Assembly: GCF_000421545.1 (NCBI RefSeq)
Contig: NZ_ATXF01000005.1
Location: forward strand, 186,001-250,000
Origin: Agromyces italicus DSM 16388
GTDB taxonomy: Bacteria > Actinomycetota > Actinomycetes > Actinomycetales > Microbacteriaceae
DNA: 64,000 bases
Reading direction: 5' to 3'
Shown here: positions 20,927 through 55,446 of the stretch, piece after piece
Position numbering within the stretch: the first letter of the stretch is position 1
Layout: each line of letters starts with the position of its first letter
Notes under the pieces: generated by a model
Databases searched by the model: none
What the model was told of the DNA's origin: nothing
The model's input: the letters and a program-made list of their open reading frames with translations, nothing else
Position numbers and translations under genes: made by a program

Positions 20927-21769
20927 CTACTCGGCCGGCGCGGCGCCCGTGGCGACCGCGCGGGTCTCGTCGTTCGACCATTGGCTCCAGGAGCCGGGGT
21001 AGAGCGCGGCGTCGACCCCTGCCAGTGCGAGCGCCGCGACGGCGTGCGCGGCGGTGACGCCCGATCCGCAGTACGCGCCGACGGTGACGCCCGGCCGGGC
21101 GCCGAGCACGGCGAAGCGCTCCCGCAGCTCGTCGGCGGGCAGGAATCGTCCGCTCGCGTCGAGGCTGCCGGCGCTCGGCGCGGAGCGCGCGCCTGGGATA
21201 TGGCCGGCACGGGGGTCGATCGGCTCGACCTCGCCGCGGTAGCGCTCGCCGGCCCGCGCGTCGAGCAGCACTCCCCCGGCCGGAAGCGCGGCGGCCGCAT
21301 CGGCGTCGATGACCGGCATACCGCCGAAGCGCGCGGTCGCGTCACCGGGTTCGGGCGCGACCCGGCCCGTTTCGAGCGGATGCCCCGCCGCCCGCCATAC
21401 GGCGAGCGCGCCGTCGAGCATCCGCACGTCGGCGACGCCGGCGTGGCGCAACAGCCACCAGGCCCGCGCGGCCGACTGGTTGCCGAGGTCGTCGGTCACG
21501 ACGACGGTGTCGCCGTCGCGAAGGCCCCAGCGGCGCATCGCCTCGGTGAGTGCCTGCTCGCTCGGCAGCGGGTGCCGGCCCTCGCCCACGACGTCGTGAT
21601 CGGCGAGCTCGCGGTCGAGGTCGACGTACACGGCACCCGGGATGTGCCCGGCGAGGTGCGCCTCGGTGCCGTCGGGCGCGGCGAGCGACCAGCGCACGTC
21701 GAGCACGACCGTGCGCTGGCCCGTGGCGAGGCGTTCTGCGAGCTCGGCGGCGTCGATGAGGATCGGCAT
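20927..21769 (-). CDS. Two-domain rhodanese sulfurtransferase
   Basis: 280 residues: N-terminal rhodanese domain (VVLDVRWSL, HIPGAVYVDLD, VVVTDDLGNQSAARAWWLLRHAGV) without Cys, and C-terminal catalytic domain (LLDARAGERYRGE, AGHIPGARSAPSA) with the active-site loop AYCGSGVTA. CGSGVT is the loop typical of thiosulfate/3-mercaptopyruvate sulfurtransferases (SseA/SseB-like). It moves sulfane sulfur to cyanide or thiols in the cytosol. It converges on the merR gene with only 4 bases between stops, so no separate terminator fits there. Confidence 0.9.
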   Translation of the reverse strand: MPILIDAAELAERLATGQRTVVLDVRWSLAAPDGTEAHLAGHIPGAVYVDLDRELADHDVVGEGRHPLPSEQALTEAMRRWGLRDGDTVVVTDDLGNQSAARAWWLLRHAGVADVRMLDGALAVWRAAGHPLETGRVAPEPGDATARFGGMPVIDADAAAALPAGGVLLDARAGERYRGEVEPIDPRAGHIPGARSAPSAGSLDASGRFLPADELRERFAVLGARPGVTVGAYCGSGVTAAHAVAALALAGVDAALYPGSWSQWSNDETRAVATGAAPAE

Positions 21770-21925
21770 GCTCCCATCCTGCCGCCTGCACCTGCGGAAA
21801 TGCTCGCTGCACCCCGGACGGACGCAGCGCGAGCGAGCGTTCTGCACGCAGCATCCGCGTCTCTGTTGCATAACGGCGGCTTGCGGATGCCTCGTCGCGC
21901 ACCGTATCGTCGACAGCGTCGATTT

Positions 21926-21947
21926 AGTGACCGAATGGTCGGTCATG
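21926..21947. promoter_or_regulatory. PaaR-like operator before the ABC importer
   Basis: A 22-bp imperfect palindrome with inner halves GACCGA and TCGGTC, 58 bp before the substrate-binding-protein start. It matches the PaaR pattern seen at the paaA/paaI and paaJ promoters (ACCG followed at the right spacing by CGGT) but deviates in the outer bases. Confidence 0.5.
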
Positions 21948-22005
21948 AATCCGTCCCCCACCTCAACGACGAGAACCCCCTGCGGGCTCAAAGGAGAGTT
22001 CACCC

Positions 22006-23199
22006 ATGCACCGTGCGCAGCGCCGCCTGCTCATCCCCGCCGCCGTCGCGGCATCCATCGCACTCGCCCTCACCGGTTGCGGCGCCTCCAACTTCGGCGG
22101 CGACTCCGGCGGCGACGGCGCCTCGGAGGAGGGCCCCATCAAGATCGGTGCCGTGCTCGACATCACCGGCGTCGGCGCGAACCTCGGCGTGCCCGAGCAG
22201 AACACCCTCAACATGCTCGCCGAACAGCTCAACGAGGCCGGCGGCATCGACGGCCGCGAGGTCGAGCTGATCATCAAGGACAACCAGTCCACCGAGGACG
22301 GCGCCGCGAAGGCGACCACCCAGCTGATCGAGAACGACGACGTCGACCTCATCATCGGCTCCTCGCGTACGGGCCCCTCGCTCGCGATGCGCCCCCTCGT
22401 CGAGGCCGCACAAGTGCCGACCATCTCGGTCGCCGCGAACGCCGCGATCGTCGACGGCTCCGAGTGGGTCTTCAAGACCGCGCAGAACGACCTCGTCGTG
22501 CTCGAGCGCATCCTCGACGACGCCGAGGCGAAGGGCTACACGAAGCTCGCCCTCGTACGCGACGCCACCGGCTTCGGCGAGGGCATCGCCGACATCATCA
22601 CCGAGCTCGGTTCCGAGCGCGGCATCACGCTCACCGCGACCGAGTCGTTCGAGCCGAGCGCGACCGACTTCACCGCGCAGATGACGAACATCCGCGCGGC
22701 CGACGCCGACGCCGTCATCATCTGGGGCATCACCCCGTCGGCCGGCCTCGCGCAGGCCGCCTACGTGCAGCTCGGCGTCGACAAGCCGGTCTACCAGTCG
22801 CACGGCGTCGCCAACGACGCCTTCTTCGAGGCCGCCGGCCCCGCCGCCGACGGCGTCATCGCCCCGATGGGCCGCCTGCTGGTCGCCGACCAGCTGAGCG
22901 ACGACGACCCCCAGAAGGCCGTCATCGACCAGTTCATCGCCGACTACACCGAGTCGTTCGACTCGGCGCCCTCGAGCTTCGCGGGGCACGCCTACGACGC
23001 GTGGCTCGTCGGCACGAAGGCCATCGAAGAGGCCGGCACCGACCCCGAGGCGCTCCGCGACGCGATCGAGGCGACGACCGACGTCGTCGGCATCTCGGGC
23101 ATCTTCACGATGACCCCCGAGAACCACTCGGGCCTCACGGCCGACGCCCTCATCATGGCGCTCGCCGAGGGCGGCCGCTGGACGCTCTACGAAGAGTGA
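22006..23199 (+). CDS. ABC importer substrate-binding lipoprotein, branched-chain amino acid (LivK) type
   Basis: 397 residues. Lipoprotein signal with lipobox ALTGC (Cys25). The mature protein is a type I periplasmic-binding fold: IKIGAVLDITGVGANLG, NMLAEQLNEAGGIDGREVELIIKDNQS and VAANAAIVDG. In the HAAT family these bind branched-chain amino acids, amides, urea or aromatic acids. An AGGAG ribosome site lies 9 bases before ATG 22006. It is first in a four-gene operon with permease and ATPase genes. The PaaR-like operator upstream raises the possibility of an aromatic-acid ligand such as phenylacetate; this is inference. Confidence 0.88.
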   Translation: MHRAQRRLLIPAAVAASIALALTGCGASNFGGDSGGDGASEEGPIKIGAVLDITGVGANLGVPEQNTLNMLAEQLNEAGGIDGREVELIIKDNQSTEDGAAKATTQLIENDDVDLIIGSSRTGPSLAMRPLVEAAQVPTISVAANAAIVDGSEWVFKTAQNDLVVLERILDDAEAKGYTKLALVRDATGFGEGIADIITELGSERGITLTATESFEPSATDFTAQMTNIRAADADAVIIWGITPSAGLAQAAYVQLGVDKPVYQSHGVANDAFFEAAGPAADGVIAPMGRLLVADQLSDDDPQKAVIDQFIADYTESFDSAPSSFAGHAYDAWLVGTKAIEEAGTDPEALRDAIEATTDVVGISGIFTMTPENHSGLTADALIMALAEGGRWTLYEE

Positions 23200-23203
23200 T
23201 CCG

Positions 23204-24073
23204 TTGACCGACTTCCTCCAGCTGACGGTGGCAGGGCTCTCGCAGGGCTCGGTGTACGCCCTGCTCGCCGTCGGCCTCATCGCCACCTACACGGTGCGGC
23301 ACGTCGTGAACATCGCCCAGGGCGACTACGCGACGCTGGCCGGCCTGGGGAGCATCTCGCTCGTCACGGCCGGCCTGCCGCTGCCCGTCGCGATCCTCAT
23401 CGCGCTCGTCTCGGTCACCCTCGCCTCGGTGCTCATCGAACGCCTCGTGATCTCGCGCGTGAAGAACCTCACGACGCTCGTCTCGATCATCCTCACGCTC
23501 GGCGTCTCGACGCTGCTCCAGGCGATCATGCTGCTCATCTGGGGCGCCGAGGGCAAGCGCCTCCCCGCGTTCCCCGGCAGCGACCTGAACCTCGGCGGCG
23601 TCAGCATCCGCTCGCAGGAGCTCTGGATGCTCGGCGCCCTGGTCGTGGTGGGCGGCGGCGTGCTGCTCTTCTACGAGAAGACCCGCTGGGGCAAGGCGCT
23701 CCGCGCGAGCGCCGAGCAGCCGGTCGCCGCCCGCATCGTCGGCATCTCGCCGGCCGTGGCCTCGGTCATCGCCTTCGCGATCGCCGGCTTCGTCGGCGCC
23801 GCGGCGGGCGTGGTCTCCTCGCCGATCTACCTCTCGATCTGGTCGGGCGGTCTGCTGCTCGGGCTCAAGGGCTTCGTCGCGGCGGTGCTCGGCGGGCTCG
23901 TCTCGTTCCGGGCCGCGATCGTCGGGGCACTGCTGCTCGGCATCATCGAGTCGTACGTGGCCGGCTACGTGGCATCGGGCTGGAAGGATGCGGTCGCGTT
24001 CTTCATCCTCATCATCGTGCTGATCATCCGGCCGGCCGGCCTCGTGCTGCGCCCGAACGCGGTAAGGGTCTGA
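23204..24073 (+). CDS. Branched-chain-type ABC importer permease (LivH-like)
   Basis: 289 residues, about eight hydrophobic segments. LQLTVAGLSQGSVYALLAVGLIATY and VVNIAQGDYATLAGL at the N-terminus and EKTRWGKALRASAEQP VAARIVGI in the coupling loop are typical LivH features. It forms the membrane channel with LivM. TTG at 23204 is the only start that keeps the conserved N-terminus; it lies 4 bases after the preceding stop, so coupling to the upstream gene is likely. Confidence 0.88.
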   Translation: MTDFLQLTVAGLSQGSVYALLAVGLIATYTVRHVVNIAQGDYATLAGLGSISLVTAGLPLPVAILIALVSVTLASVLIERLVISRVKNLTTLVSIILTLGVSTLLQAIMLLIWGAEGKRLPAFPGSDLNLGGVSIRSQELWMLGALVVVGGGVLLFYEKTRWGKALRASAEQPVAARIVGISPAVASVIAFAIAGFVGAAAGVVSSPIYLSIWSGGLLLGLKGFVAAVLGGLVSFRAAIVGALLLGIIESYVAGYVASGWKDAVAFFILIIVLIIRPAGLVLRPNAVRV

Positions 24074-24074
24074 G

Positions 24075-26114
24075 ATGTCGTACCTGAACAAGGCCGCCCT
24101 CCGGTCGAAGACCGGCTTCTGGCCCAACAACCGCGGCACGATCATCGGGGTGGCCCTCCTCGCGGTCGTCATCCTGATCGTGCCGTTCACGGCGAGCTCG
24201 TCGATGATGAACATCGCCGTCTTCTCGATGATCTTCGCGCTTCCCGCGATCGGCCTGTCGCTGCTCATGGGCCTCGCAGGCCAGGTGTCGCTGGGGCAGG
24301 CGGCGTTCTTCGCGATCGGCGCCTACACGCACGCGATCCTGCTGCAGAAGTTCGAGATGCCGGGGCTCGTCGCCGCCGTCGGCGGGGTCGTCGCGGCGAT
24401 GCTCGCGGCGCTCCTCGTCGGCCTGCCGATGCTGCGCCTGCGCGGGCACTATCTCGCGCTCGCGACGCTCGGCCTCGGCTTCATCGTCATGATCGCGGTG
24501 CGCGAGTGGGAGTTCACCGGACGCACGACGGGCATCTACGGCTACGGCCGACCCGAAGTCTTCGGCATCCCGATCGACAACAACGGGCTGTTCTTCTGGT
24601 TCGTCGCGCCGTTCGTGCTGCTCGGCCTCGTGCTCGCGCTGAACCTCACCCGCTCGCGTGCGGGCCGGGCGCTCTCGGCGGTCAACGACTCCGAGCTCGC
24701 GGCCGAGTCGCTCGGTGTGAACACCTACGCGCTGCGCGTCAAGGTGTTCACCCTGTCGGCGGGCTTCGCGGGCCTCGGCGGCGTGTTCTACGCGTACCAG
24801 GTGCAGATCGTCTCGCCGCAGGTCGCGGAGTTCCACGTCTCGGTCGAGCTGCTGCTCATGGTCGTCATCGGCGGGCTCGGCTCGGTGTGGGGCGCCATCG
24901 CGGGCGCCTTCATCGTCGAGCTCCTCTCCGAGGGCCTGCGTGACCTGATCCCCGCGATCATCCCCGGTGCGACGGGCGAGGTGCAGCTCATCGGCTACGG
25001 CCTCGTGCTGATCCTCGTGATCATCCTGCTGCCGGGCGGCCTCTACCAGGTCGTCAAGACGGCCTGGGCGGCGATCACCTCGCGCATCGGCGCGAGGCGG
25101 GCGGATGCCGCGGCGCCGGCCGGTGCGGCCGCGCTCCCCGGCGGCGGGGCCGACGACGGCACGGCCGAAGCGCCGACGCGCGCGTTCGGCGGGCTGCCGG
25201 GCGAAGGCGCCGCGAGCGCTCCGGTCGACGGAACGGCCGACGGCGACGCCGTGGGCGACGGCGGGCACGAGGCATCCGCGCCGGTGCCGACCGTCTCGGT
25301 GCCGGTACCCGCGGGCGCCCCGATCCTCGAGGTGCGCGGACTCACGAAGCGCTACGGCGGCGTCGTCGCCGTCGACGAAGTGACCCTCACCGTGCCGGCC
25401 GGGCAGATCATGGGCCTGATCGGGCCGAACGGCGCGGGCAAGACGACGTGCTTCAACATGATCACCGGCGCCATCGCGCCGACCTCGGGCACGGTGTCCT
25501 TCCTCGGCTCCGAGATCCAGGGGCGCAAGCCCCACGTGGGCGCCGAGGCGGGGCTCACCCGCACGTTCCAGAACCTCCAGGTGTTCTCGTCGACCGACGT
25601 CGTCGGCAACGTCTACATGGGTCGCTACCGCAAGGGTCGCGCGGGCATCCTCCGCGGCATGCTCGGGCTGCAGGGCCGGGAGCAGTACCGCCACGAGGAG
25701 ATCGCCCGCGAGATCCTCGAGACGATGCAGCTCGGGGACGTCTCGGGCCTCGCCGCGGGCGACCTGCCGTTCGGCCGCCAGCGCATGATGGAGGTGTGCC
25801 GCGCGCTCGCCTCCGAGCCCGCGCTGCTGCTGCTCGACGAACCGATGGCGGGGCTCTCGGGCCGCGAGCGCGAGATGCTCGCGACGCTGCTCCGGCGCCT
25901 CCGCGACGCCGGCCTCACGATCGTGCTCGTCGAGCACGACGTGGCGCAGGTGATGGCGCTCGCCGACACGGTCGCGGTGCTCGACGACGGCGTGCTCATC
26001 GCGCACGGCGACCCCGAATCGGTGCGCAACGACCCCGCGGTCATCGTCGCCTACCTCGGCACCGACGCCGAGGAGGCCGAGGCCGAGCTCAAGGAACTGG
26101 AGGAGCACGCATGA
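24075..26114 (+). CDS. Fused branched-chain-type permease and ATPase (LivM-LivG)
   Basis: 679 residues. Residues 1-330 are a LivM permease (LLMGLAGQVSLGQAAFFAIGAY, LRLRGHYLALATLGLGF, SRAGRALSAVNDSELAAESLGV). A ~80-residue Ala/Gly/Asp linker (about 335-410) leads to a LivG ATPase: Walker A GLIGPNGAGKTT, signature-like LPFGRQRMMEVCRAL, Walker B LLLLDEPMAGLSGRE, and VLVEHDVAQVMALADTV. Most bacteria encode the two separately; fusion is known in actinobacteria and proteobacteria. The signature lacks the usual SGG, as in many LivG proteins. It overlaps livF by ATGA. Confidence 0.9.
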   Translation: MSYLNKAALRSKTGFWPNNRGTIIGVALLAVVILIVPFTASSSMMNIAVFSMIFALPAIGLSLLMGLAGQVSLGQAAFFAIGAYTHAILLQKFEMPGLVAAVGGVVAAMLAALLVGLPMLRLRGHYLALATLGLGFIVMIAVREWEFTGRTTGIYGYGRPEVFGIPIDNNGLFFWFVAPFVLLGLVLALNLTRSRAGRALSAVNDSELAAESLGVNTYALRVKVFTLSAGFAGLGGVFYAYQVQIVSPQVAEFHVSVELLLMVVIGGLGSVWGAIAGAFIVELLSEGLRDLIPAIIPGATGEVQLIGYGLVLILVIILLPGGLYQVVKTAWAAITSRIGARRADAAAPAGAAALPGGGADDGTAEAPTRAFGGLPGEGAASAPVDGTADGDAVGDGGHEASAPVPTVSVPVPAGAPILEVRGLTKRYGGVVAVDEVTLTVPAGQIMGLIGPNGAGKTTCFNMITGAIAPTSGTVSFLGSEIQGRKPHVGAEAGLTRTFQNLQVFSSTDVVGNVYMGRYRKGRAGILRGMLGLQGREQYRHEEIAREILETMQLGDVSGLAAGDLPFGRQRMMEVCRALASEPALLLLDEPMAGLSGREREMLATLLRRLRDAGLTIVLVEHDVAQVMALADTVAVLDDGVLIAHGDPESVRNDPAVIVAYLGTDAEEAEAELKELEEHA

Positions 26115-26815
26115 CGCTCTCGGTGAAGTCGCTCGACGCGGGCTACGGCAAGCTCGCCATCCTGCACGAGGTGAGCCTCGAGGTCGCCGCAGGCGAGATC
26201 GTGACCGTCGTCGGCTCGAACGGTGCGGGCAAGACGACGCTGCTGCGCGCGGTCAACGGCCTCATCCGTCCGACCGGGGGCACGGTCGCGCTCGACGGCA
26301 CCGAGATCACGGGCCGCCCGACCGAGAAGATGGCGTCGCTCGGGCTCACCCACGTGCCCGAGAACCGCCTCTGCTTCCCGACTCTTTCGGTGCGCGACAA
26401 CCTGATGCTCGGCGCGTGGAGCAAGGGCGGCAGGGGCGACCTCGATGCCGTGCTCGAACTGTTCCCGCGGCTGAAGCCCCGGCTCGGGCAGGCGGCGGGC
26501 ACGCTCTCGGGCGGCGAGCAGCAGATGGTCGCCATCGGCCGCGGCATGATGGCCGCGCCGAAGGCGATCATGCTCGACGAGCCCTCCATCGGGCTCGCCC
26601 CGAAGGTCGTCGCCGAGATCATGAAGGTGCTCACCGAGCTGCGTTCGCGCGGCCTCGCGGTGCTGCTCGTCGAGCAGAACGTGCGCGCCTCGTTCGGCAT
26701 CGCCGACCGGGCGGTCGTCATGCAGCGCGGACGCGTGGTGCTCGAGGGCACGCCGGCCGAGCTCGTCGAACTGCCCGAGGTGCGCAACGCCTACCTCGGC
26801 GGTGCGGCGGCGTAG
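26111..26815 (+). CDS. Branched-chain-type ABC importer second ATPase (LivF-like)
   Basis: 234 residues. Walker A VGSNGAGKTTLL, conserved LTHVPENRLCFPTLSVRDNLMLG, signature TLSGGEQQMVAIGRGMM, Walker B AIMLDEPSIGLAPK, and LLVEQNVRASFGIADRAVVMQRG: a canonical LivF. It dimerises with the LivG domain of the upstream fusion to drive import. It is the last gene of the operon and is followed by a strong hairpin. Confidence 0.92.
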   Translation: MTLSVKSLDAGYGKLAILHEVSLEVAAGEIVTVVGSNGAGKTTLLRAVNGLIRPTGGTVALDGTEITGRPTEKMASLGLTHVPENRLCFPTLSVRDNLMLGAWSKGGRGDLDAVLELFPRLKPRLGQAAGTLSGGEQQMVAIGRGMMAAPKAIMLDEPSIGLAPKVVAEIMKVLTELRSRGLAVLLVEQNVRASFGIADRAVVMQRGRVVLEGTPAELVELPEVRNAYLGGAAA

Positions 26816-42823: not shown

Positions 42824-43804
42824 TCATGCTGCCGCGGCCTTCAGCGACTGCTTGCGGGCGTACTCGGCGGCGGCTTCGCGCACCCAGGCGCCCTCGTCGT
42901 GCGCTTCGCGGCGACGGCGGAGACGCTCGGCGTTGGCGGGGCCGCGACCGGCGAGCACCTCGTTGAACTCGGTCCAGTCGATCTCGCTCATGTCGTACTC
43001 GCCGGTTTCGTCGTTGAAGCGCAGCGCCGGGTCGGGCAGGGTCACGCCGAGCACCTCGGCCTGCGGCACGAGCATGCCGACGAAGCGCTGGCGCAGCTCG
43101 TCGTTCGAGAAGCGCTTGATGTTCCACGCCATCGACTGCGCCGAGTTCGGCGACTCGTCGTCGGGCGGGCCGAACATCTGCAGGCTCGGCCAGTACCAGC
43201 GGTTCACCGCGTCCTGCGCCATCTCGCGCTGCGCCTCGGTGCCCTGCATGAGTTCGAGCAGGATCTCGAACCCCTGCCGCTGGTGGAACGACTCCTCCTT
43301 GCAGATGCGCACCATCGCGCGGCCGTACGGGCCGTACGACGCGCGGCACAGCGGCACCTGGTTGCAGATCGCGGCGCCGTCGACCAGCCAGCCGATCGCA
43401 CCCATGTCGGCCCACGTCGGGGTGGTGTAATTGAAGATCGACGAGTAACGGGCGCGGCCCTCGATGAGCTGGCTCATCATCTCGTCGCGGCCGATGCCGA
43501 GCGTCTGCGCCGCAGAGTAGAGGTAGAGGCCGTGCCCGGCTTCGTCTTGCACCTTGGCCATGAGGATGGCCTTGCGCTTGAGGCTCGGTGCTCGTGTGAT
43601 CCAGTTCGACTCGGGCTGCATGCCGATGATCTCGGAGTGCGCGTGCTGGCTGATCTGGCGGATGAGCGTCTTGCGGTACGCCTCGGGCATCCAATCGCGG
43701 GGCTCGATGCGCGAGTCCTTCGCGATGAGCTCGTCGAAGAGGGCCCGGCCCTCGTCGTCCTGGGGCTCGGCGCCGGCGAGGCTGAGCTCGGCAGCTGCGG
43801 TCAT
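42824..43804 (-). CDS. paaA: Phenylacetyl-CoA 1,2-epoxidase catalytic subunit
   Basis: 326 residues. Di-iron ferritin-like enzyme: [44 protein letters not shown] in blocks (EDEAGH-type ligands) and the second ligand set in [20 protein letters not shown]. It inserts oxygen across C1-C2 of the aromatic ring of phenylacetyl-CoA, using electrons from PaaE. ATG 43804 is favoured over the adjacent ATG 43807 because AGGAG lies about 7 bases upstream. First gene of paaABCDE-G; a PaaR-type operator lies 69-90 bases upstream. Confidence 0.94.
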
Positions 43805-43872
43805 CATCGACTCCTGTGTCTTCGTGGGGTTCGGGCGCTTCGCGAACGGAGCGCCACGTGGCATCCAACATT

Positions 43873-43894
43873 ACTAACCGATCGTTCAGTTAGT
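43873..43894. promoter_or_regulatory. PaaR operator in the paaA/paaI divergent promoter
   Basis: 22-bp palindrome with halves ACTAACCG and CAGTTAGT. It agrees with the actinobacterial PaaR pattern as I recall it (ACTNACCG...CGGTNAGT) at all defined positions but one. It abuts TATAGT (43896-43901), a possible -10 for paaI, so binding would block both divergent promoters. Confidence 0.75.
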
Positions 43895-43950: not shown

Positions 43951-44361
43951 ATGACGGATGCCGCGACCGCCCCGAACCGTGCCATGATGCAGCGCGACCT
44001 CGCCTCCGCGGCGCTCGGCCTCGTCGTCGAACGCGACGACCCCGGCCACGCCGTGGTCTCGATGCGCGTGCGCGACGACATGACCAACGGCTTCGGCATC
44101 ACCCACGGCGGCCTCGTCTTCACCCTGGCCGACACCGCCTTCGCGATCGCCTGCAACGAGGACGAGACGGTCACCGTCGCCGCGGGCGCCGACATCACCT
44201 TCCTGAAGTCCACCGTCTCGGGGCAGACCCTCACCGCGACCGCCGTCCGCCGTACCCGGTCGGGCCGCACCGGACTCTACGACGTCTCGGTCGTCGACGA
44301 GCACGGCGACGCGGTCGCCGAGTTCCGCGGCCGTTCCATCTCCACCAACCGCACCCTCTGA
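43951..44361 (+). CDS. paaI: Phenylacetyl-CoA thioesterase (hotdog fold)
   Basis: 136 residues. VSMRVRDDMTNGFGITHGGLVFTLADTAFAIACN in blocks gives the hotdog fold with the PaaI catalytic stretch THGGLVFTLADTAF (Asp in the central helix) and GADITFLKSTVSGQTL. PaaI hydrolyses phenylacetyl-CoA and dead-end CoA esters to free CoA when the pathway stalls. A GAGGAG ribosome site precedes ATG 43951. First gene of the rightward paaI-paaK-paaR unit. Confidence 0.92.
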   Translation: MTDAATAPNRAMMQRDLASAALGLVVERDDPGHAVVSMRVRDDMTNGFGITHGGLVFTLADTAFAIACNEDETVTVAAGADITFLKSTVSGQTLTATAVRRTRSGRTGLYDVSVVDEHGDAVAEFRGRSISTNRTL

Positions 44362-44378: not shown

Positions 44379-45716
44379 GTGTCGACGACGACCACCTCCC
44401 CCAGCGTCTCGGGCCTCGTGCCCCCGCGCCCCGACGAGCTCGACCCCGAAGAGCGGATGACCCGCGCAGAACTCGAGGCGCTGCAGCTCGAGCGGCTGCG
44501 CCAGACCGTCGCGCACGCGTACGAGCACGTGCCCCTCTACACCGCGAAGTTCGACGCGGCGGGGGTGCACCCCCGTGACATCCAGAGCCTCGCCGATGTC
44601 GCGAAGCTGCCGTTCACCACCAAGGAGGACCTGCGGCAGACCTACCCCTTCGGCATGTTCGCCGTGCCGATGGCCGAGGTCGCGCGCATCCACGCCTCGA
44701 GCGGTACCACCGGCCGGCCCACCGTCGTCGGCTACACGAAGGGCGACCTCGACCGCTGGGCGACCCTCGTGGCCCGCTCGCTCCGCGCGAGCGGCGTGCG
44801 CCCCGGCATGAAGGTGCACAACGCCTACGGCTACGGCCTGTTCACCGGCGGGCTCGGCGCCCACGCCGGCATCGAGAAGCTCGGCGCCACCGTCATCCCG
44901 ATATCGGGCGGCCAGACGGCCCGCCAGGTGCAGCTCATCGTCGACTTCGAGCCCGACGCGATCCTCTGCACGCCGAGCTACCTGCTCACCATCGCCGACG
45001 CGATGGTCGCGGCCGGCATCGACCCGCGCTCGACCTCGCTCAAGACGGCGGTGCTCGGCGCCGAGCCGTGGACGAACGAGATGCGCCACGAGCTCGAGCA
45101 GCGCCTCGGCATCGACGCGCTCGACATCTACGGGCTCAGCGAGGTCATGGGGCCGGGCGTCGGCAACGAGTGCATCGAGACGAAGGACGGCCCCCACATC
45201 TGGGAGGACCACTTCCTGCCCGAGATCATCGACGGCGACTCGGGCGCGGTGCTGGCCGACGGCGAGATGGGCGAGCTCGTCTTCACCTCGCTCACGAAGG
45301 AGGCGTTCCCGGTCATCCGCTACCGCACGCGCGACCTCACGCGCCTGCTGCCGGGCACCGCGCGCCCCGCGATGCGCCGCATCGAGAAGATCACCGGCCG
45401 CAACGACGACATGATCATCCTGCGCGGGGTGAATCTCTTCCCGACGCAGATCGAGGAGATCGTGCTCGGCATCGAGCAGCTCACGCCGCACTTCATCCTC
45501 GAACTCACCCGCGAAGGCCGCATGGACGCGATGACGGTGCGCATCGAGCGGCACCCCGACCTCTCGCGCGAGGTGTGCGAGGCGGCTTCGGTCGTACTGG
45601 CGAAGAAGATCAAGGTACTCATCGGCTCGACCGTCGAGGTGAGGCTCGAGGAGCCGGGCGCGCTGCCGCGCAGCGAGGGCAAGTACAAGCGGGTCTACGA
45701 CCTGCGGGGCGAATGA
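44379..45716 (+). CDS. paaK: Phenylacetate-CoA ligase
   Basis: 445 residues, the usual length. LPFTTKEDLRQTYPFGMFAVP, the ATP-binding ASSGTTGRPTVVGYT, MKVHNAYGYGLFTGGLGAHAG, LDIYGLSEVMGPGVGNEC and the C-terminal RTRDLTRLLPGTARPAMRRI with KITGRNDDMIILRGVNLFPTQIE identify PaaK. It activates phenylacetate with ATP and CoA, the entry step. GTG 44379 is 17 bases after paaI. Confidence 0.94.
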   Translation: MSTTTTSPSVSGLVPPRPDELDPEERMTRAELEALQLERLRQTVAHAYEHVPLYTAKFDAAGVHPRDIQSLADVAKLPFTTKEDLRQTYPFGMFAVPMAEVARIHASSGTTGRPTVVGYTKGDLDRWATLVARSLRASGVRPGMKVHNAYGYGLFTGGLGAHAGIEKLGATVIPISGGQTARQVQLIVDFEPDAILCTPSYLLTIADAMVAAGIDPRSTSLKTAVLGAEPWTNEMRHELEQRLGIDALDIYGLSEVMGPGVGNECIETKDGPHIWEDHFLPEIIDGDSGAVLADGEMGELVFTSLTKEAFPVIRYRTRDLTRLLPGTARPAMRRIEKITGRNDDMIILRGVNLFPTQIEEIVLGIEQLTPHFILELTREGRMDAMTVRIERHPDLSREVCEAASVVLAKKIKVLIGSTVEVRLEEPGALPRSEGKYKRVYDLRGE

Positions 45717-45741: not shown

Positions 45742-46371
45742 ATGAGCGAGAACGGATCACTTCGACGAGGCCGCCCGGGCTACGACCAGCAGGGCATCCT
45801 CGACGTCGCCGTCGCCGCCTTCAACCAGTACGGCTACGACGCGACCTCGATGGGCGTGCTCGCCGACCGGCTCGGGCTCTCGAAGTCGGCCATCTACCAT
45901 CACTTCGCTTCGAAAGACGAGATCCTCGAGCGAGCCCTCGACGACGCCTTGAGCGCACTCGAGGGGGTGCTCCACGACGCGGATGCCTCGGGCGGTCGTG
46001 CGGCCGATCGCCTCGATCTCGCCCTCCGCGGCGCGGTGCACGTTCTCGTCGCCAGGCTGCCGAGCGTCACGCTGCTGCTGCGCGTGCGCGGCAACACCGA
46101 GGTCGAGCGCCGCGCACTCGCCCGCCGCCGCGCCTTCGACCGCGCCATCACCGCGCTCGTCGAAGAGGCGCAGCGCGAGGGAACGCTGCGCAGCGACCTC
46201 GACGCGAGCGTCGTCGCGCGGCTCGTCTTCGGCATGATCAACTCGATCGTCGAGTGGTACCGCCCCGGCGGCCGCGAAGACGCCGACAAGCTGGCCGACG
46301 ACGTCATCGCGGTCGCGCTCGACGGGCTGCGCATGCCGACCTCGAACCGGGTGCAGGAGCTGCTGGGCTGA
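45742..46371 (+). CDS. paaR: TetR-family regulator of phenylacetate catabolism
   Basis: 209 residues. The N-terminal TetR helix-turn-helix is ILDVAVAAFNQYGYDATSMGVLADRLGLSKSAIYHHFASKDEIL in blocks. The C-terminal ligand domain (about residues 75-205) fits TetR_C proteins. Position behind paaI-paaK, and 22-bp TetR-type palindromes at the paa promoters, point to PaaR, a repressor released by phenylacetyl-CoA in actinobacteria. It is co-transcribed with paaK (25-base gap), so it represses its own unit. Confidence 0.85.
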   Translation: MSENGSLRRGRPGYDQQGILDVAVAAFNQYGYDATSMGVLADRLGLSKSAIYHHFASKDEILERALDDALSALEGVLHDADASGGRAADRLDLALRGAVHVLVARLPSVTLLLRVRGNTEVERRALARRRAFDRAITALVEEAQREGTLRSDLDASVVARLVFGMINSIVEWYRPGGREDADKLADDVIAVALDGLRMPTSNRVQELLG

Positions 46372-46609: not shown

Positions 46610-46751
46610 GTCGACTCCTCCTGCTCGTCGACTTCGAGCCTGCGCTCTGAGGTGGCGGCGTGGCATCCGGCGATCGCCCTACTTTCTCCGGGCCACCGCG
46701 TTCCCGTCCTTCCCGCGCACGGATGTCCGAGGCATGCGCGAAGCTGGAGCG

Positions 46752-48890
46752 ATGACGCCGGAGACGACCGACACCCGATCCGCCGCGCTCGCGGCGCTCC
46801 GCGAGCTCGTGGGGCGGGGCGACGCCGACTTCCACGACGGGCAGTTCGAGGCGATCGAGGCACTCGTCGAGGGTCGTCGCCGGGCGCTCGTCGTGCAACG
46901 CACCGGCTGGGGCAAGTCGGCCGTCTACTTCGTCGCGACCCTGCTGCTGCGCCGACGTGGCGGCGGTCCCACCGTGCTCGTCTCGCCGCTGCTCGCGCTC
47001 ATGCGCGACCAGATCGCCGCGGCCGAACGGGCCGGCGTCAGGGCGGTCGCCATCAACTCGACCAACCCGCACGAATGGGGCGAGGTGCTCGCCCGGCTCG
47101 ACCGCGACGAGGTCGACGTGCTGCTCGTCTCGCCCGAGCGGCTGAACAACCCCTCGTTCCGCGACGAGCAGTTGCCGGCACTCGTTCGCCGCATCGGCAT
47201 GCTCGTCGTCGACGAAGCGCATTGCATCAGCGACTGGGGGCACGACTTCCGCCCCGACTACCGGCGCCTTCGCGAGCTGATCGCGCAGATGCCGGCCGAG
47301 GTGCCCGTGCTCGCCACGACCGCGACGGCCAACAGCCGGGTCGTGGCCGATGTCGCCGAGCAACTCGGGGGTGAGGCATCCGGCTCGCTCGAGCGCCACG
47401 GCGGAGGAGACGCCGAAGGCGGCGTCGTCACCATTCGCGGCCCCCTCGCACGCACCTCGCTGCGCCTCGGCGTGCTGCGGCTGCCCGACTCGGCGAGTCG
47501 GCTGGCCTGGCTCGTCGGGCATCTCGGCGAGATGCCCGGCTCGGGCATCATCTATACGCTGACGGTGGCGGCGGCGAACGACACCGCCCGGCTGCTGCGC
47601 GAGCGCGGGCACGAGGTGCGGGCGTACACCGGGCAGACCGACCCAGACGAGCGGGCCGAGTCGGAGGGAATGCTGAAGCGCAACGAGGTCAAGGCGCTCG
47701 TCGCGACGAGCGCGCTCGGCATGGGCTTCGACAAGCCCGACCTCGGTTTCGTACTGCACCTCGGGGCGCCGTCGTCGCCGGTCGCCTACTACCAGCAGGT
47801 CGGCCGCGCGGGCCGTGCGACCGAGTCGGCCGACGTGCTGCTGCTGCCGGGCGTCGAAGACCGCGAGATCTGGCACTACTTCGCGACCGCCTCGATGCCC
47901 GACCGCGAGCGGGCCGAACGCGTGATCGCCGCGCTCTCCGACACGCCGGTGTCGACCCCCGCGCTCGAGGCGAGGGTCGACCTCCGGCGCACGCCGCTCG
48001 AGCTGCTGCTGAAGGTGCTCGATGTCGACGGCGCCGTGCGGCGCGAGAAGGGCGGCTGGGTCGCGACCGGCGCGCCGTGGGCCTACGACGAGGAGCGCTA
48101 CCGCCGCATCGCCGCCGAGCGGCTCGCCGAGCAGCAGCACATGATCGAGTACGAGACGACCGGGGGCTGCCGCATGGAGTTCCTGCAGCGCTCGCTCGAC
48201 GATGCGACGGCGGCCCCTTGCGGGCGGTGCGACAACTGCGCAGGTGTCTGGTACCCCACCGCGATCGGCGCCGAGGCATCGGCGACCGCGGCGAAGGCCC
48301 TCGACCGGGTCGGTGTGCCGATCGAGCCGCGTCGCGCCTGGCCCACCGGCGCCGACCGGCTCGGGGTGCCGGTGAAGGGCCGCATCTCCCCCGCCGAACA
48401 GGCGAGCGAGGGGCGGGCGCTCGCCCGCCTGACCGATCTCGGCTGGGGCGGCACCCTTCGTGAGGTCTTCGCCGCGGGGGCGCCCGATGCACCGGTGTCG
48501 CCGCAACTGCTCGCCGCCTGCGTCCGAGTGCTCGCCGACTGGGGCTGGGCCGACCGCCCCGTTGCCGTCGTGGCGATGCCGTCGCGCTCGAAGCCGCTGC
48601 TCGTCGATTCGCTGGCGCGCGGCCTCGCAGAGGTCGGCCGCCTCCCCTACCTCGGCGCGCTCGACCCGGTCGACGGTGGCCCGAGCGGGCAGCCCGGCGG
48701 CAACAGCGCGTTCCGGCTCGCGGGCGTGTGGGGTCGGTTCTCCGCGGCGGGGCTCGACGTGCCGGCCGGGCCGGTGCTGCTCGTCGACGACCTCGCCGAC
48801 AGCCGGTGGACGCTCACGGTCGCCGCCCGCGAGCTGCGCCTCGCCGGGGCGGGCGGAGTGCTGCCATTCGCCCTCGCGCTGCGCGGGTGA
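46752..48890 (+). CDS. recQ: RecQ-family DNA helicase with C-terminal phosphoribosyltransferase-like domain
   Basis: 712 residues. RecQ core: motif 0 DFHDGQFEAIEALVEGRR, motif I VVQRTGWGKSAVYF, motif II LVVDEAHCISDWGHDFRPDYRRL, motif III LATTATAN, motif V VATSALGMGFDKPDLGFVLHLG and motif VI YYQQVGRAGR. The RecQ zinc cysteines are CRMEF and CGRCDNC. The C-terminal ~200 residues lack HRDC and instead contain GPVLLVDDLADSRWTLTVAARELR, the PRPP loop of type I phosphoribosyltransferases. Such RecQ-PRTase fusions occur in actinobacteria; whether the domain is active is unknown. ATG 46752 is chosen at the start of the conserved region. It separates the two halves of the paa island. Confidence 0.88.
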   Translation: MTPETTDTRSAALAALRELVGRGDADFHDGQFEAIEALVEGRRRALVVQRTGWGKSAVYFVATLLLRRRGGGPTVLVSPLLALMRDQIAAAERAGVRAVAINSTNPHEWGEVLARLDRDEVDVLLVSPERLNNPSFRDEQLPALVRRIGMLVVDEAHCISDWGHDFRPDYRRLRELIAQMPAEVPVLATTATANSRVVADVAEQLGGEASGSLERHGGGDAEGGVVTIRGPLARTSLRLGVLRLPDSASRLAWLVGHLGEMPGSGIIYTLTVAAANDTARLLRERGHEVRAYTGQTDPDERAESEGMLKRNEVKALVATSALGMGFDKPDLGFVLHLGAPSSPVAYYQQVGRAGRATESADVLLLPGVEDREIWHYFATASMPDRERAERVIAALSDTPVSTPALEARVDLRRTPLELLLKVLDVDGAVRREKGGWVATGAPWAYDEERYRRIAAERLAEQQHMIEYETTGGCRMEFLQRSLDDATAAPCGRCDNCAGVWYPTAIGAEASATAAKALDRVGVPIEPRRAWPTGADRLGVPVKGRISPAEQASEGRALARLTDLGWGGTLREVFAAGAPDAPVSPQLLAACVRVLADWGWADRPVAVVAMPSRSKPLLVDSLARGLAEVGRLPYLGALDPVDGGPSGQPGGNSAFRLAGVWGRFSAAGLDVPAGPVLLVDDLADSRWTLTVAARELRLAGAGGVLPFALALRG

Positions 48891-50332: not shown

Positions 50333-50348
50333 CTACCCGACCGGCGTG
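50322..50348 (-). terminator. Hairpin at the 3' end of paaZ with the stop codon in the loop
   Basis: CACGCCGGT (50322-50330) pairs with ACCGGCGTG (50340-50348). The paaZ stop lies in the 9-base loop, the same arrangement as at 13997-14026. Confidence 0.5.
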
Positions 50349-52420
50349 GCCTCGCCGGCCTGCTCCTTCGCGACGAGCGTCAGCACGTCGTACGACGCCA
50401 CGAGCTCGTCGTTCTGGTTGCGGAGCACCGCGTCCCACCGCACCTCGCCGTACTCGTCGGTCTCACGCGGAGTGATCTGCTTGGCCGTGAGCTCGACTCG
50501 GATCGCGTCGCCGGGCGAGACCGGCGTCACGAAGCGCAGGTTCTCGAGGCCGGAGTTCGCGAGCACCGGGCCCGGTGCCGCGTCGACGAAGAGCCCCGCC
50601 GCCCACGAGACGAGCAGGTACCCGTGCGCGACCCGGCCCGGGAAGAACGGGTTCGCTGCCGCGGCCTCCTCGTCCATGTGGGCGTAGAAGGTGTCGCCCG
50701 TGAAGTTCGCGAAGGTCTCGATGTCGTCGAGCGTCACCGTGCGCGAGCCGCTGACGACCTGGTCGCCGAGCCGCAGTTCGGCGAGCGACTTGCGGAACGG
50801 GTGCACCCCACCGGCCCGCGCGCTCGCGCCCGCGTGCCACACCCCGGTGAGCGTCGTGAGCATCTCGGGCGAGCCCTGCACCGCGGTGCGCTGCATGTGG
50901 TGCAGCACCGCGCGGATGCCGCCGAGCTCCTCCCCGCCGCCCGCGCGGCCGGGGCCGCCGTGCACGAGGTTCGGCAGCGGCGAGCCGTGACCGGTCGAGG
51001 TGCGGGCGTCGTCGCGGTCGAGGAAGAGCACGCGACCGTTGTACGCTGCGATGCCCGAGGCGAGTTCGACGGCGACCGCGGGGTCATGGGTCGCGACGCT
51101 CGTGACGAGTGAGCCGCCGCCGCGCGCGACGAGCGCCGAGGCCTCGGCGAGCGAGCCGTAACCGACGATCGACGAGACCGGGCCGAAGGCCTCGACCTCG
51201 TGCAGGGCCGGGCTCGCGGCATCCGCGAATCGCAGCAGCATCGGCGCGACGAAGGCGCCGTCGGGCGCCGAGCCGGTCGAGCCGTCCGCGAGTGCGACCG
51301 TCGGGGCATCCGTCGAACCGATCACGAGCTCGCCACCCGCGGCGGTGAGCCGGCCGACCTGACGCAGCACCTCGTCGCGCTGGGCGGTCGAGGCGAGCGG
51401 GCCCATCGTGACGCCCTCGGCGCGCGGGTCGCCGACGACGACGCGCTCGGCGATGCGTGCGCGCACCGCGTCGATGACGGCGTCGACGGAGGCCTCGGGC
51501 ACGATCGCCCGGCGGATCGCGGTGCACTTCTGCCCCGCCTTCGTCGTCATCTCGACGACGAGCTGCTTGACGTACGCATCGAACTCGGGGGTGCCGGCCA
51601 CCGCGTCGGTGCCGAGCACGCTCGCATTGATCGAGTCGGTCTCGCTCGTGAAACGCACCCCGCCGGTCTGCACGGCGTCATGCGCGCGCAGCCTCTCGGC
51701 CGTCGAGGCCGAGCCGGTGAACCCGACGAGGTCGCCGAGCCGCAGGTGATCGAAGAGCGTCGGCACGCTGCCCGAGACCAGCTGCAGCGACCCGTCGGGG
51801 AGCAGCCCCGACTCGACGAGGATGCGCACGAACGCCTCGGCGAGATAGCCGGTCGGCGTCGCAGGCTTCACGACGGTGGGCATTCCGGCGAGGAAGGCGG
51901 GCGCGAACTTCTCGAGCGAACCCCACACCGGGAAGTTGAAAGCGTTGATCTGCACGGCCGCACCGGGCAGGCGGGTATAGATATGCCGCCCCAGGAATGA
52001 ACCGTCCTTCGAGAGGTTCTCGACGGCTCCGTCGAGGTAGACCTTCGAATTCGGCATCTCACGACGGCCCTTGCCCGAGAAGGTGAACAACACGCCGATG
52101 CCGCCGTCGATGTCGACCCACGAGTCCTGCTTGGTGGCGCCGGTGCGGCTCGACAGCGCATACAGCTCGGCTTTGCGCTCGGTCAACGCGAGGGCCATCT
52201 GCTTCAGCAGCACCGCACGCTGGTGGAAGGTGAGTTCACCGAGCGAGGCCTGGCCGACGGTGCGCGCGTACTCGAGCGCGGCGCCGAGGTCGAGCCCCTC
52301 GGTCGACACCCGGGTCACGACCTCCCCCGTGGAGGCGTCGCGCACCTCGGTCGCCGGCGCGGACGGGGAGGGCGTCCACCACCCGCCGTTGACGTAGCTC
52401 GGCAGGATCTCGGTCATCAT
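50333..52420 (-). CDS. paaZ: Bifunctional oxepin-CoA hydrolase / 3-oxo-5,6-dehydrosuberyl-CoA semialdehyde dehydrogenase
   Basis: 695 residues. N-terminal aldehyde dehydrogenase (about 1-520): PGAAVQINAFNFPVWGSLEKFAPAFLAGMPTVVKPA in blocks, GFTGSASTAERL, SETDSINASV and the catalytic Cys in TTKAGQKCTAIRRAIVP. The C-terminal (R)-specific hydratase/MaoC hotdog (about 550-690) has FANFTGDTFYAHMDEEAAAANPFFPGRVAHGYLL. The full-length fusion indicates both ring opening and aldehyde oxidation in one protein. Last gene of paaJ-F-H-Z; 46 bases holding a degenerate repeat separate it from paaH. Two ATGs in tandem (52420/52417) are possible starts. Confidence 0.94.
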   Translation of the reverse strand: MMTEILPSYVNGGWWTPSPSAPATEVRDASTGEVVTRVSTEGLDLGAALEYARTVGQASLGELTFHQRAVLLKQMALALTERKAELYALSSRTGATKQDSWVDIDGGIGVLFTFSGKGRREMPNSKVYLDGAVENLSKDGSFLGRHIYTRLPGAAVQINAFNFPVWGSLEKFAPAFLAGMPTVVKPATPTGYLAEAFVRILVESGLLPDGSLQLVSGSVPTLFDHLRLGDLVGFTGSASTAERLRAHDAVQTGGVRFTSETDSINASVLGTDAVAGTPEFDAYVKQLVVEMTTKAGQKCTAIRRAIVPEASVDAVIDAVRARIAERVVVGDPRAEGVTMGPLASTAQRDEVLRQVGRLTAAGGELVIGSTDAPTVALADGSTGSAPDGAFVAPMLLRFADAASPALHEVEAFGPVSSIVGYGSLAEASALVARGGGSLVTSVATHDPAVAVELASGIAAYNGRVLFLDRDDARTSTGHGSPLPNLVHGGPGRAGGGEELGGIRAVLHHMQRTAVQGSPEMLTTLTGVWHAGASARAGGVHPFRKSLAELRLGDQVVSGSRTVTLDDIETFANFTGDTFYAHMDEEAAAANPFFPGRVAHGYLLVSWAAGLFVDAAPGPVLANSGLENLRFVTPVSPGDAIRVELTAKQITPRETDEYGEVRWDAVLRNQNDELVASYDVLTLVAKEQAGEATPVG

Positions 52421-52434
52421 CTGATGGTCCTCTC

Positions 52435-52466
52435 GGTGGTCGAGTAGCGCGGCGAATCGAGACCCC
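52435..52466. repeat. Degenerate palindromic repeat between paaH and paaZ
   Basis: GGTGGTCGAGTAGCG...GAATCGAGACCCC, related in ends and order to the copy in the paaH start (53325-53354). Confidence 0.55.
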
Positions 52467-53369
52467 TCACGAGGCATCCCACTGGTAGAAGCCCTCGCCG
52501 CTCTTGCGGCCGAGCCTGCCCTCGGCGACCATGCGCCTCAGCAGGGCGGGCGGAGCGAATCGTTCGCCGAGCGTCTGCGCGAGGTACTCGGCGATGCCGA
52601 GCCGCACGTCGAGTCCGACGAGGTCGGTCAGCTTGAGCGGCCCGACGGGGTGCTTGTACCCGAGCGTCATCGCCGCGTCGATGTCCTCGGCCGAGGCGAC
52701 GCCCTCCTCGAGCATGCGGATGGCCTCGAGCCCGAGCATGACGCCGAGGCGCGACGAGGCGAAGCCCGGGGCGTCCGCGACGACGATGGGCGTCTTGCCG
52801 ATCGCGCGCACCCAGCCGCGCGCCTCGTCGACGAGCTTCGGGTCGGATGCCTCGCCGCGCACGACCTCGACGAGAGTCGACGCCGGCACGGGGTTGAAGA
52901 AGTGCATGCCGACGAAGCGCGAGGGCCGGTCGAGCAGGGTCGCGAGCTGGTCGATCGAGATCGACGAGGTGTTCGAGGCGAGCGCCGCGGCCGGGGCGAG
53001 CACCCGCTCGACGCGGGTGAGGGCGTCGATCTTCAGCTCGAGGTCCTCGGGCACGGCCTCGACGACGAGCTCGCAGTTCGCGAAGTCGGCGACGTCGGTG
53101 CTCGTGGCGAAGCGGGCGGCGTAGGCCGCGGCGTCCTCGTCGGCGGTGCCGCGGACGACCGAGGCCTCGACCGAGGCGAGCACCCGCTGCGCGGCCGCCG
53201 CGGCGGCGTCGGCGTCGCGCTCGACGATCGTGACCCTCGAGCCCGCGAGCAGGAACGCGTGCGCGATGCCCGCGCCCATCCGCCCGCCGCCGAGCACGCC
53301 GACGGCGGCGGGAGCGCCGCTTCCGGTGGGCGAGTCGCGAAGCGTATCGAGACCTTGAGACCCGCTCAT
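52467..53369 (-). CDS. paaH: 3-hydroxyadipyl-CoA dehydrogenase, with repeat-derived N-terminus
   Basis: 300 residues. NAD-binding VGVLGGGRMGAGIAHAFLLAG; catalytic SNTSSISIDQLA, FVGMHFFNPVPASTLVEVV and DAPGFASSRLGVMLGLEAIRML are 3-hydroxyacyl-CoA dehydrogenase signatures. In the paa pathway it oxidises 3-hydroxyadipyl-CoA. Residues 3-17 (GSQGLDTLRDSPTGS) are read from a palindromic repeat (53325-53354) and lie before the conserved Rossmann strand. The start overlaps the paaF stop by ATGA. Confidence 0.9.
   Translation of the reverse strand: MSGSQGLDTLRDSPTGSGAPAAVGVLGGGRMGAGIAHAFLLAGSRVTIVERDADAAAAAAQRVLASVEASVVRGTADEDAAAYAARFATSTDVADFANCELVVEAVPEDLELKIDALTRVERVLAPAAALASNTSSISIDQLATLLDRPSRFVGMHFFNPVPASTLVEVVRGEASDPKLVDEARGWVRAIGKTPIVVADAPGFASSRLGVMLGLEAIRMLEEGVASAEDIDAAMTLGYKHPVGPLKLTDLVGLDVRLGIAEYLAQTLGERFAPPALLRRMVAEGRLGRKSGEGFYQWDAS
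53325..53354. repeat. Palindromic repeat inside the paaH coding start
   Basis: GGTGGGCGAGTCGCGAAGCG...TATCGAGACC: the pattern GGT.G.CGAG...TCGAGACC is shared with 52435-52466 and 54107-54140. Confidence 0.65.
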
Positions 53370-54148
53370 TTCTGCTTCCTCTCGAGGAACTCGGTCATCC
53401 GCCGCGTCTTCTCGGGACTCTCGAAGAGCACGGCCTGCTCCTCGAGGTCGACGGCCGGGTGCTCTTCGCGCGGCGCCCGGAAGACGCGCTTCGTCGCCAT
53501 CGTCGCCGCGCGATCGTTGCGGGCGATCCGATCGGCGATCGCGTGCGCGGCGGGCAGCAGCTCGTCGGCCGGGTGCACCTCCCCGACGAGTCCGATCTCG
53601 CGCGCCTCCTCGGCGCCGATCGTGCGGCCGGTGAGCAGCAGTTCGATCGCCCGCGCGTCGCCCACGATCTCCTTCAAGCGCCAGCTCGCGCCCGCCGCGG
53701 CGATGATGCCGAGCCCCGTCTCGGGATTGCCGATCTTCAGCGAGGGCGTCGCGATGCGGATGTCGGCGGCGTACGCGAGCTCGGCGCCGCCCCCGAGCGC
53801 GTACCCGTCGAGCGCGGCGATCACGGGCATCGGCAGCAGCGCGATGCGCACGAAGGCGTTCGCGTTGATGCCGGCGCGGGCGTCGGCGGCGCGGCGGTCG
53901 CGGAGCTGGGAGATGTCGGCGCCCGAGGCGAACACGCCCCCGGAGCCCGTGAGGATGAGCGTGCGCGGGATCGCCTCGAGCTCGGCGCAGAGCAGATGGA
54001 GGGCGTCGATCGTCGACTGGTCGATCGCGTTGCGCTTGTCGGGGCGGTTGAGGGCGGCGACCACGCGATCGTCGTGCCGTTCGACGAGCAGCGGCCCGCC
54101 ATCATCGGTCGAGGAGGAGCGAAGCGACGTCTCGAGACCCGCCATCAT
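53366..54148 (-). CDS. paaF: 2,3-dehydroadipyl-CoA hydratase (enoyl-CoA hydratase)
   Basis: 260 residues, crotonase fold: LNRPDKRNAIDQSTIDAL, TGSGGVFASGADISQL, DGYALGGGAELAYAADIRIA and GNPETGLGIIAAAGASWRL. This second crotonase lies with paaJ and paaH, so it most likely hydrates dehydroadipyl-CoA, while the 38830 gene is the isomerase PaaG. The split is inference from context and loop residues. Residues 4-15 (GLETSLRSSSTD) derive from a palindromic repeat (54107-54140). ATG 54148 overlaps the paaJ stop by one base (TGATG). Confidence 0.82.
   Translation of the reverse strand: MMAGLETSLRSSSTDDGGPLLVERHDDRVVAALNRPDKRNAIDQSTIDALHLLCAELEAIPRTLILTGSGGVFASGADISQLRDRRAADARAGINANAFVRIALLPMPVIAALDGYALGGGAELAYAADIRIATPSLKIGNPETGLGIIAAAGASWRLKEIVGDARAIELLLTGRTIGAEEAREIGLVGEVHPADELLPAAHAIADRIARNDRAATMATKRVFRAPREEHPAVDLEEQAVLFESPEKTRRMTEFLERKQK
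54107..54140. repeat. Palindromic repeat inside the paaF coding start
   Basis: GGTCGAGGAGGAGCGAAGCG...TCTCGAGACCC, ends as in the 35-bp family, read in frame as GLETSLRSSSTD on the minus strand. Confidence 0.65.
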
Positions 54149-55344: not shown

Positions 55345-55424
55345 GTTCACTCCTGACCGCACTGTCTTCGAGAACGCTGCTCCCAGCGTAGGCAGGGGTC
55401 CGCGGCATCCGCACGGCCGGAATT

Positions 55425-55446
55425 CCTGACCGACCGTTCAGGTAGT
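55425..55446. promoter_or_regulatory. PaaR operator before paaJ
   Basis: 22-bp palindrome CCTGACCG...CAGGTAGT. It shares ACCG, CGTTCAG and TAGTA with the paaA/paaI operator at identical spacing; three defined positions differ from the consensus. It is flanked by A/T-rich bases (TAATTATGG) that could hold the promoter. Confidence 0.65.

Follow-up and report, generated by a model that had tools for sequence, protein, structure and literature searches.

We found that a 22-bp palindrome ahead of a livK-like gene is conserved before the orthologs of that gene throughout Agromyces, and we consider it quite likely that the operon behind it (22006 to 26815) encodes a PaaR-repressed, ATP-driven importer that takes up phenylacetate or a near relative and feeds it into the paa pathway. 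All positions refer to the window, the 64-kb stretch of DNA analysed here (C5:186001-250000 of the 3.73-Mb Agromyces genome G000).

The importer genes all lie on the plus strand. The livK-like gene (22006 to 23199) encodes a lipoprotein substrate-binding protein (Pfam PF13458, 186.9 bits) with an LTGC lipobox in its sequence, and is followed by a livH-like permease gene (23204 to 24073; best NCBIfam match NF008011), a livM-livG fusion of permease and ATPase (24075 to 26114; NF008449 over residues 415-663 and NF008450 from residue 26, both matches under the cut-off) and a livF-like ATPase gene (26111 to 26815; NCBIfam and Pfam matches). The paa genes span about 38.8 to 55.4 kb of the window. 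They include paaA, for a phenylacetyl-CoA epoxidase subunit (42824 to 43864, minus strand; TIGR02156, 499.9 bits against a cut-off of 280), a gene that we take to be paaI-like from its position (43951 to 44361, plus strand) and paaK, for phenylacetate-CoA ligase (44379 to 45716, plus strand; TIGR02155, 669.2 bits against a cut-off of 646.3). The TetR-family regulator gene that follows (45742 to 46371, plus strand; PF00440 and PF17932) is named paaR because of its place beside paaK and paaA; its product matched no PaaR-named model in the NCBIfam scan. On the minus strand, 50333 to 55347 holds genes whose translations we presume to be those of paaZ, paaH and a paaG-like gene, together with the thiolase gene paaJ, which is supported by TIGR01930.

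A conserved operator ahead of livK

The original prediction placed three palindromes in the window, at 21926 to 21947 before livK (AGTGACCGAATGGTCGGTCATG), at 43873 to 43894 between paaA and paaI (ACTAACCGATCGTTCAGTTAGT) and at 55425 to 55446 before paaJ (CCTGACCGACCGTTCAGGTAGT), and all three are present there. A matching site was found ahead of paaA in all 30 loci fetched, and the paaJ operator is recognised by the matrix of paa sites described below. A collagen-like repeat protein gene (PF01391; 55491 to 56348, minus strand) with a long GAT-GAT-type protein repeat adjoins the paaJ operator. The livK site was described as keeping the inner inverted repeat GACCGA-N4-TCGGTC without the outer C2 and G21, and the letters bear this out; the central C of the paa sites is absent as well. 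It ends 58 bp before the livK ATG.

Within a single genome, the strength of this site depends on the model applied. The loose skeleton ACCGNNCGNNCGGT, with up to two mismatches allowed, occurs 149 times in the window against 139.3 expected, and therefore the skeleton by itself proves nothing. We then built a symmetric 22-bp matrix from paaA and paaJ sites (12 distinct ones), leaving transporter sites out of it. This matrix gave 34.0 and 27.6 for the two paa sites and 19.0 for the livK site, which thus ranks third; the next-best place in the window scores 10.1 with this paa-only matrix once register-shifted copies of the paa sites are set aside, and over about 6 Mb under a Markov-1 model of the window no place scored 19 or above. 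In window searches with profile models, the livK site ranked fourth with the one-orientation profile R1 and third, behind the two paa sites, with the two-orientation profile R2; its score is about 8 bits, with E 0.34 in both. Genome-wide at E ≤ 10, where the best 150 of 3647 and 2335 candidates were scored with R1 and R2, respectively, both paa sites are listed and the livK site is not. The site carries a PaaR-type core, ACCGA-N4-TCGGT, in a promoter region, and not the extended paa operator with outer ACT/AGT and central CG at genome-wide profile significance. Because the profile models score it weakly, it is no more than a candidate when judged from one genome.

Conservation, and not the single-genome scores, settles the matter and confirms the livK site. 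Among 60 Agromyces genomes surveyed, 16 carry a livK ortholog, and the site stands 72-81 bp before the start in each of the 16. A gapless alignment of these sequences on the site shows no variation in 20 of 21 core columns, compared with 4 of 60 columns in the preceding 60 bp. Absence of the palindrome before orthologous importers, named in the original prediction as grounds for abandoning it, was not what we saw among orthologs of 70% identity or more. Variants of the site also precede livK in all five Cryobacterium and all three Agrococcus loci. The Cryobacterium arms can be longer (AATTAGTGACCGA-CTGT-TCGGTCACTAATT in one locus, L175), and the Agrococcus site, TCTGACCGATCGTTCGGTCAGA or ACTGACCGATCGTTCGGTCATC, is nearer the paa consensus than that of Agromyces. 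A further genome of the same family, G177, has a liv site close to the paa consensus (AACGACCGAACGTTCAGTCAGT, score 27.5); in another, G369, the liv site scores 17.3 in a best register shifted by 4, a shift also seen in the Cryobacterium locus L171.

The site does not extend to the whole protein family. We scanned the 300 bp before the match in 20 homologs that are less closely related (L179-L198, with identities of 34-69% and some of them truncated) and met the site in none. Paa-like genes turned up near just four of the 20, and the protein family as a whole is therefore not tied to paa. One of these homologs, L182 from Pseudonocardia, does have a place scoring 14.8, some 240 bp ahead of its called start and beyond the stretch scanned; we left it uncounted because about 2-3 such places per Mb arise by chance. 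In a sample of 398 genomes spread evenly across the family, with up to four candidates scored per genome, at least four carry a livK ortholog, two of them being Agromyces, and the system is therefore rare.

A putative promoter, TTGCGG-N18-TATCGT (21881 to 21910, plus strand), precedes the operator, which begins 16 bp past its last base. Letters resembling its elements, CTTGC and GTATC-like, are among the few conserved upstream of the site in the 16 Agromyces sequences, and a consensus scan of 21760 to 22010 gave no sigma-70 match. We regard this promoter as plausible, and an operator just downstream of it fits repression.

Linkage to the paa genes and exchange with an MHS-type transporter

Next to its conservation, the company that livK keeps is what we would expect of a member of the PaaR regulon. 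Of the 60 Agromyces genomes, 52 have paaR, including 15 of the 16 with livK; the exception (G467) is a 77%-complete assembly. In 14 of these 15 genomes, livK and paaR share a contig and are 12-43 kb apart; the remaining assembly (G468) is fragmented and has them on separate contigs. All five Cryobacterium loci have the paaA operator 9.4-9.9 kb from livK. As a side observation, two livK genomes have paa genes that appear split across frames, through either assembly error or decay, namely paaR of G017 (C1:1288151-1288858) and paaA of G020 (C1:3233002-3234016).

The four distant loci with paa-like genes nearby are a Microlunatus assembly (L181), where paaI (51% identity) adjoins livK, a Micromonosporaceae assembly (L191), where paaK (68%) does so, and L197 and L198, in which a paaJ- or paaK-like gene lies farther from livK. 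In the Microlunatus locus, the paaI-like stretch is just before livK and a sodium:solute symporter gene (PF00474; L181:5744-7315) comes after the liv operon, so that two uptake systems are close together. Separately, an FMN-dependent dehydrogenase gene (PF01070; L183:13895-15091) follows the distant liv operon of Modestobacter. This enzyme family includes mandelate and lactate dehydrogenases, and such a neighbour is a hint that this branch may handle mandelate-like substrates.

That a TetR-family regulator other than PaaR binds the livK palindrome is the main rival to our reading, and we judge it rather unlikely. TetR proteins with GACCGA/TCGGTC half-sites are common in actinobacteria, the livK site is without the outer bases seen in the paa sites, and similar half-sites occur at least once more in the same genome, in the tandem palindromes TTGACCGATCGGTCAG and ACGATCGGTCAG before a gene for a 231-aa TetR protein (C10:35930-35963; L247, L248). 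It is because this operator has the same half-sites that we keep the alternative; however, its half-sites adjoin with no spacer, whereas 4 bp separate those of the liv and paa sites. Moreover, the genome holds seven other copies within three mismatches of the 18-mer of the livK site; every one of the seven overlaps a reading frame, in one case right where the frame begins, and we found none ahead of a TetR gene. The alternative would also have to accommodate the company of livK and paaR in 15 of 16 genomes, the place of the liv operon, which in A. agglutinans is within the paa row and in Cryobacterium close to paaA, and the liv sites of Agrococcus and G177 that approach the paa consensus. As for the C10 gene itself, it is followed by a large membrane-protein gene, presumably of the MMPL type, and the two are likely an autoregulated TetR-transporter pair.

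In the paa genomes without livK, an extra site stands ahead of a transporter gene beside paaJ. The best NCBIfam match of this transporter is TIGR00883 (metabolite/H+ symporter; 406.7 bits, under the cut-off of 443.5), and we call it MHS-type. Orthologs with 83-100% identity occur in 31 of the 60 Agromyces genomes, all 31 of which have paaR and none livK. The site lies 73-146 bp before the MHS start in 19/19 loci, with scores of at least 15.7 under the paa-only matrix, and was present again in 11/11 further loci with scores of at least 18.0, giving 30/30 loci examined of the 31. In 9 of the first 19, the MHS gene is on a different contig from paaA or more than 100 kb away (two of the nine, G014 and G027, are fragmented assemblies), and the site therefore goes with the MHS gene. 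Two homologs of 70-71% identity in one other genus have the site, and seven paralogs of 54-59% do not. Six paaR genomes have neither livK nor MHS; there we looked for a third transporter with a paa site, and rejected this idea after finding no site above 15 beyond those of paaA and paaJ in roughly 20 kb per genome.

The two transporters can occupy the same place. The gene row of A. agglutinans (G451) reads recQ-[site]-livKHMGF-[site]-paaJGHZ; that of G466 and of G003 reads recQ-[site]-MHS-[site]-paaJGHZ. The liv operon of A. agglutinans thus stands between recQ and paaJ, in the slot where the other two have MHS. G466 pairs with A. agglutinans on the PaaR tree (SH-aLRT 85). In the genome studied here, a gene that we take to encode a recQ-like helicase (46710 to 48890, plus strand) lies between paaR and paaZ, while in G451, G466 and G003 it borders the transporter slot, and the paa locus has therefore been rearranged around recQ. 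Counted by genome, the exclusion between livK and MHS (15 and 31 of the 52 paaR genomes) has a P value of 1.2e-8, and the association of either transporter with paaR a Fisher P value of 3e-5. On the PaaR tree, which covers 42 of the 52 paaR genomes, only two changes between the livK and MHS states are needed; the genomes are therefore not independent events and the P values overstate the exclusion.

Beyond the single operon, we lean, with more reserve, towards a general arrangement in which a PaaR-type operator defines an uptake slot at the paa locus, into which an MHS symporter or a Liv-type importer may be swapped between recQ and paaJ, each with its own operator, and in which this LivK would represent a phenylacetate-specific class.

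What LivK may bind

In a sequence search of solved structures, LivK was nearest to 3sg0 and 4dqd (E about 6e-35), followed by 7ylt, other R. palustris proteins and Streptococcus LivJ 4gnr (E 3e-28), with E. coli LivJ at 1.5e-7. The AlphaFold model of LivK (pLDDT 88.1) has as its best structural match 4dqd (Z 46.9), whose title describes it as complexed with phenylpyruvic acid. The next nine matches bear titles of R. palustris, Rp1789 or R. palustris RPD proteins, three of them with p-coumarate or caffeate. An aromatic acid ligand is thus given in four titles among the ten best matches (4dqd, 4f8j, 4eyq, 4eyo), and a branched-chain amino acid in none of the ten; the first match with a branched-chain title is 4gnr, at Z 42.8. 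LivK is thus nearest to aromatic-acid-binding proteins, as would be expected of a HAAT-type aromatic-acid importer, with 4gnr not far behind.

The usual label of such operons suggests another reading, in which the operon is under PaaR control but takes up an amino acid, branched-chain or aromatic. The general Liv-type fold and operon layout agree with it, E. coli LivJ and LivK are annotated for phenylalanine as well, and the S. pneumoniae LivJ structure 4gnr is a fair match by both sequence and structure. Against this, all four subunits fall under the curated cut-offs of the E. coli-type branched-chain models: LivK scores 67 against 477, LivH 98 against 379, LivM 153 against 366, LivG 228 against 362 and LivF 214 against 441. 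In addition, Glu226 and Tyr202 of E. coli LivJ, which we take to be the residues holding the substrate amine, correspond to His266 and Ile242 in LivK, with identical letters in 32/32 aligned homologs, and 3sg0 too has His at the Glu226 position. Together with the ligands named for the closest structures, these differences lead us to consider an amino acid substrate improbable, somewhat more so than a different TetR regulator. What the operon imports is probably phenylacetate, or else a closely related compound such as phenylpyruvate.

Finally, the notion that the palindrome serves the divergent sulfurtransferase gene (20927 to 21763), with which it shares an intergenic region about 160 bp from the assumed start of that gene, is rejected as highly improbable, since the site stays with livK where the neighbour differs, namely in A. 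agglutinans, where the divergent neighbour is recQ, and in the Cryobacterium and Agrococcus loci, which gave no sulfurtransferase match.

Proposed regulation and comparison with known systems

We propose that PaaR binds the livK palindrome and responds to phenylacetyl-CoA. Without inducer, transcription would be blocked by a PaaR dimer bound to GACCGA-N4-TCGGTC, right behind the promoter. PaaK would make phenylacetyl-CoA from the imported substrate, this compound would free the operator of PaaR, and uptake and breakdown would be induced together. In sister species, the same job would be done by the MHS-type transporter, by metabolite:H+ symport, under the same kind of operator.

The PaaR consensus of C. 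glutamicum is ACCGA-N4-TCGGT-like. The PaaR site of B. cenocepacia, ACCGACCGGTCGGTT, has the same core layout as the livK site (PMC9493321), as does the putative PaaR site AACGA-N4-TCGGT of S. pristinaespiralis (PMC10933834). In the review that gives the B. cenocepacia site, the ligand that makes PaaR let go of DNA, in that species and in T. thermophilus, is compound II; for T. thermophilus this would be phenylacetyl-CoA, going by the title of a paper cited there (PMC9493321). The regulons of these four organisms resemble the present one in having a TetR-type regulator of paa genes; however, the PaaR targets named in the published accounts cited here are paa catabolic promoters, whereas in Agromyces a LivKHMGF importer or an MHS-type transporter also carries the site.

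Liv-type operons with a LivK-like protein are likewise found in the HAAT importers of R. palustris (RPA1789-RPA1793 for p-coumarate, and HbaEFGHI; structures 3sg0, 4dqd and 4f8j), whose binding proteins are 24-30% identical to LivK here. In the p-coumarate system, permease and ATPase are fused as in livM-livG, and the R. palustris importers differ from ours in having other substrates and a MarR-type neighbour (PMC3223731). They are not known to be tied to paa. Since HAAT importers of aromatic acids are known in R. palustris (PMC3223731), the role that the original prediction called unusual for a LivK-type system is less so than it held. Its central proposal, a PaaR-controlled uptake system for phenylacetate or a precursor, gains support from co-occurrence with paaR, exclusion with MHS, the in-place exchange and the aromatic type of LivK, all read from sequence and predicted structure. 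The Agromyces operon shares its gene set and fold with E. coli LivKHMGF, but differs from it in the M-G fusion, the replaced amine-binding positions and the four subunits under curated cut-offs. Other uptake systems that go with paa genes are PaaL of P. putida and the putative phenylacetate transporter CgR_0643 of C. glutamicum R (PMC2653477, PMC8796525).

By mode of transport, the operon described here would be an ABC importer, in contrast to PaaL, a solute:sodium-type symporter. Liv-type aromatic importers and PaaR regulons are each already known, but neither a combination of the two nor an exchange with a symporter was met in our literature search, which recognised no LivK-type or PaaR-controlled phenylacetate importer and had most subscription journals outside its reach.

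Taken together, the operator, the genomic exchange partner and the type of binding protein give a liv-type operon a testable substrate. They also predict that the MHS-type gene of sister species is a second importer for the same substrate. Agromyces may therefore offer a natural experiment on what is gained by spending ATP on an acid that close relatives seem to import by a symporter.
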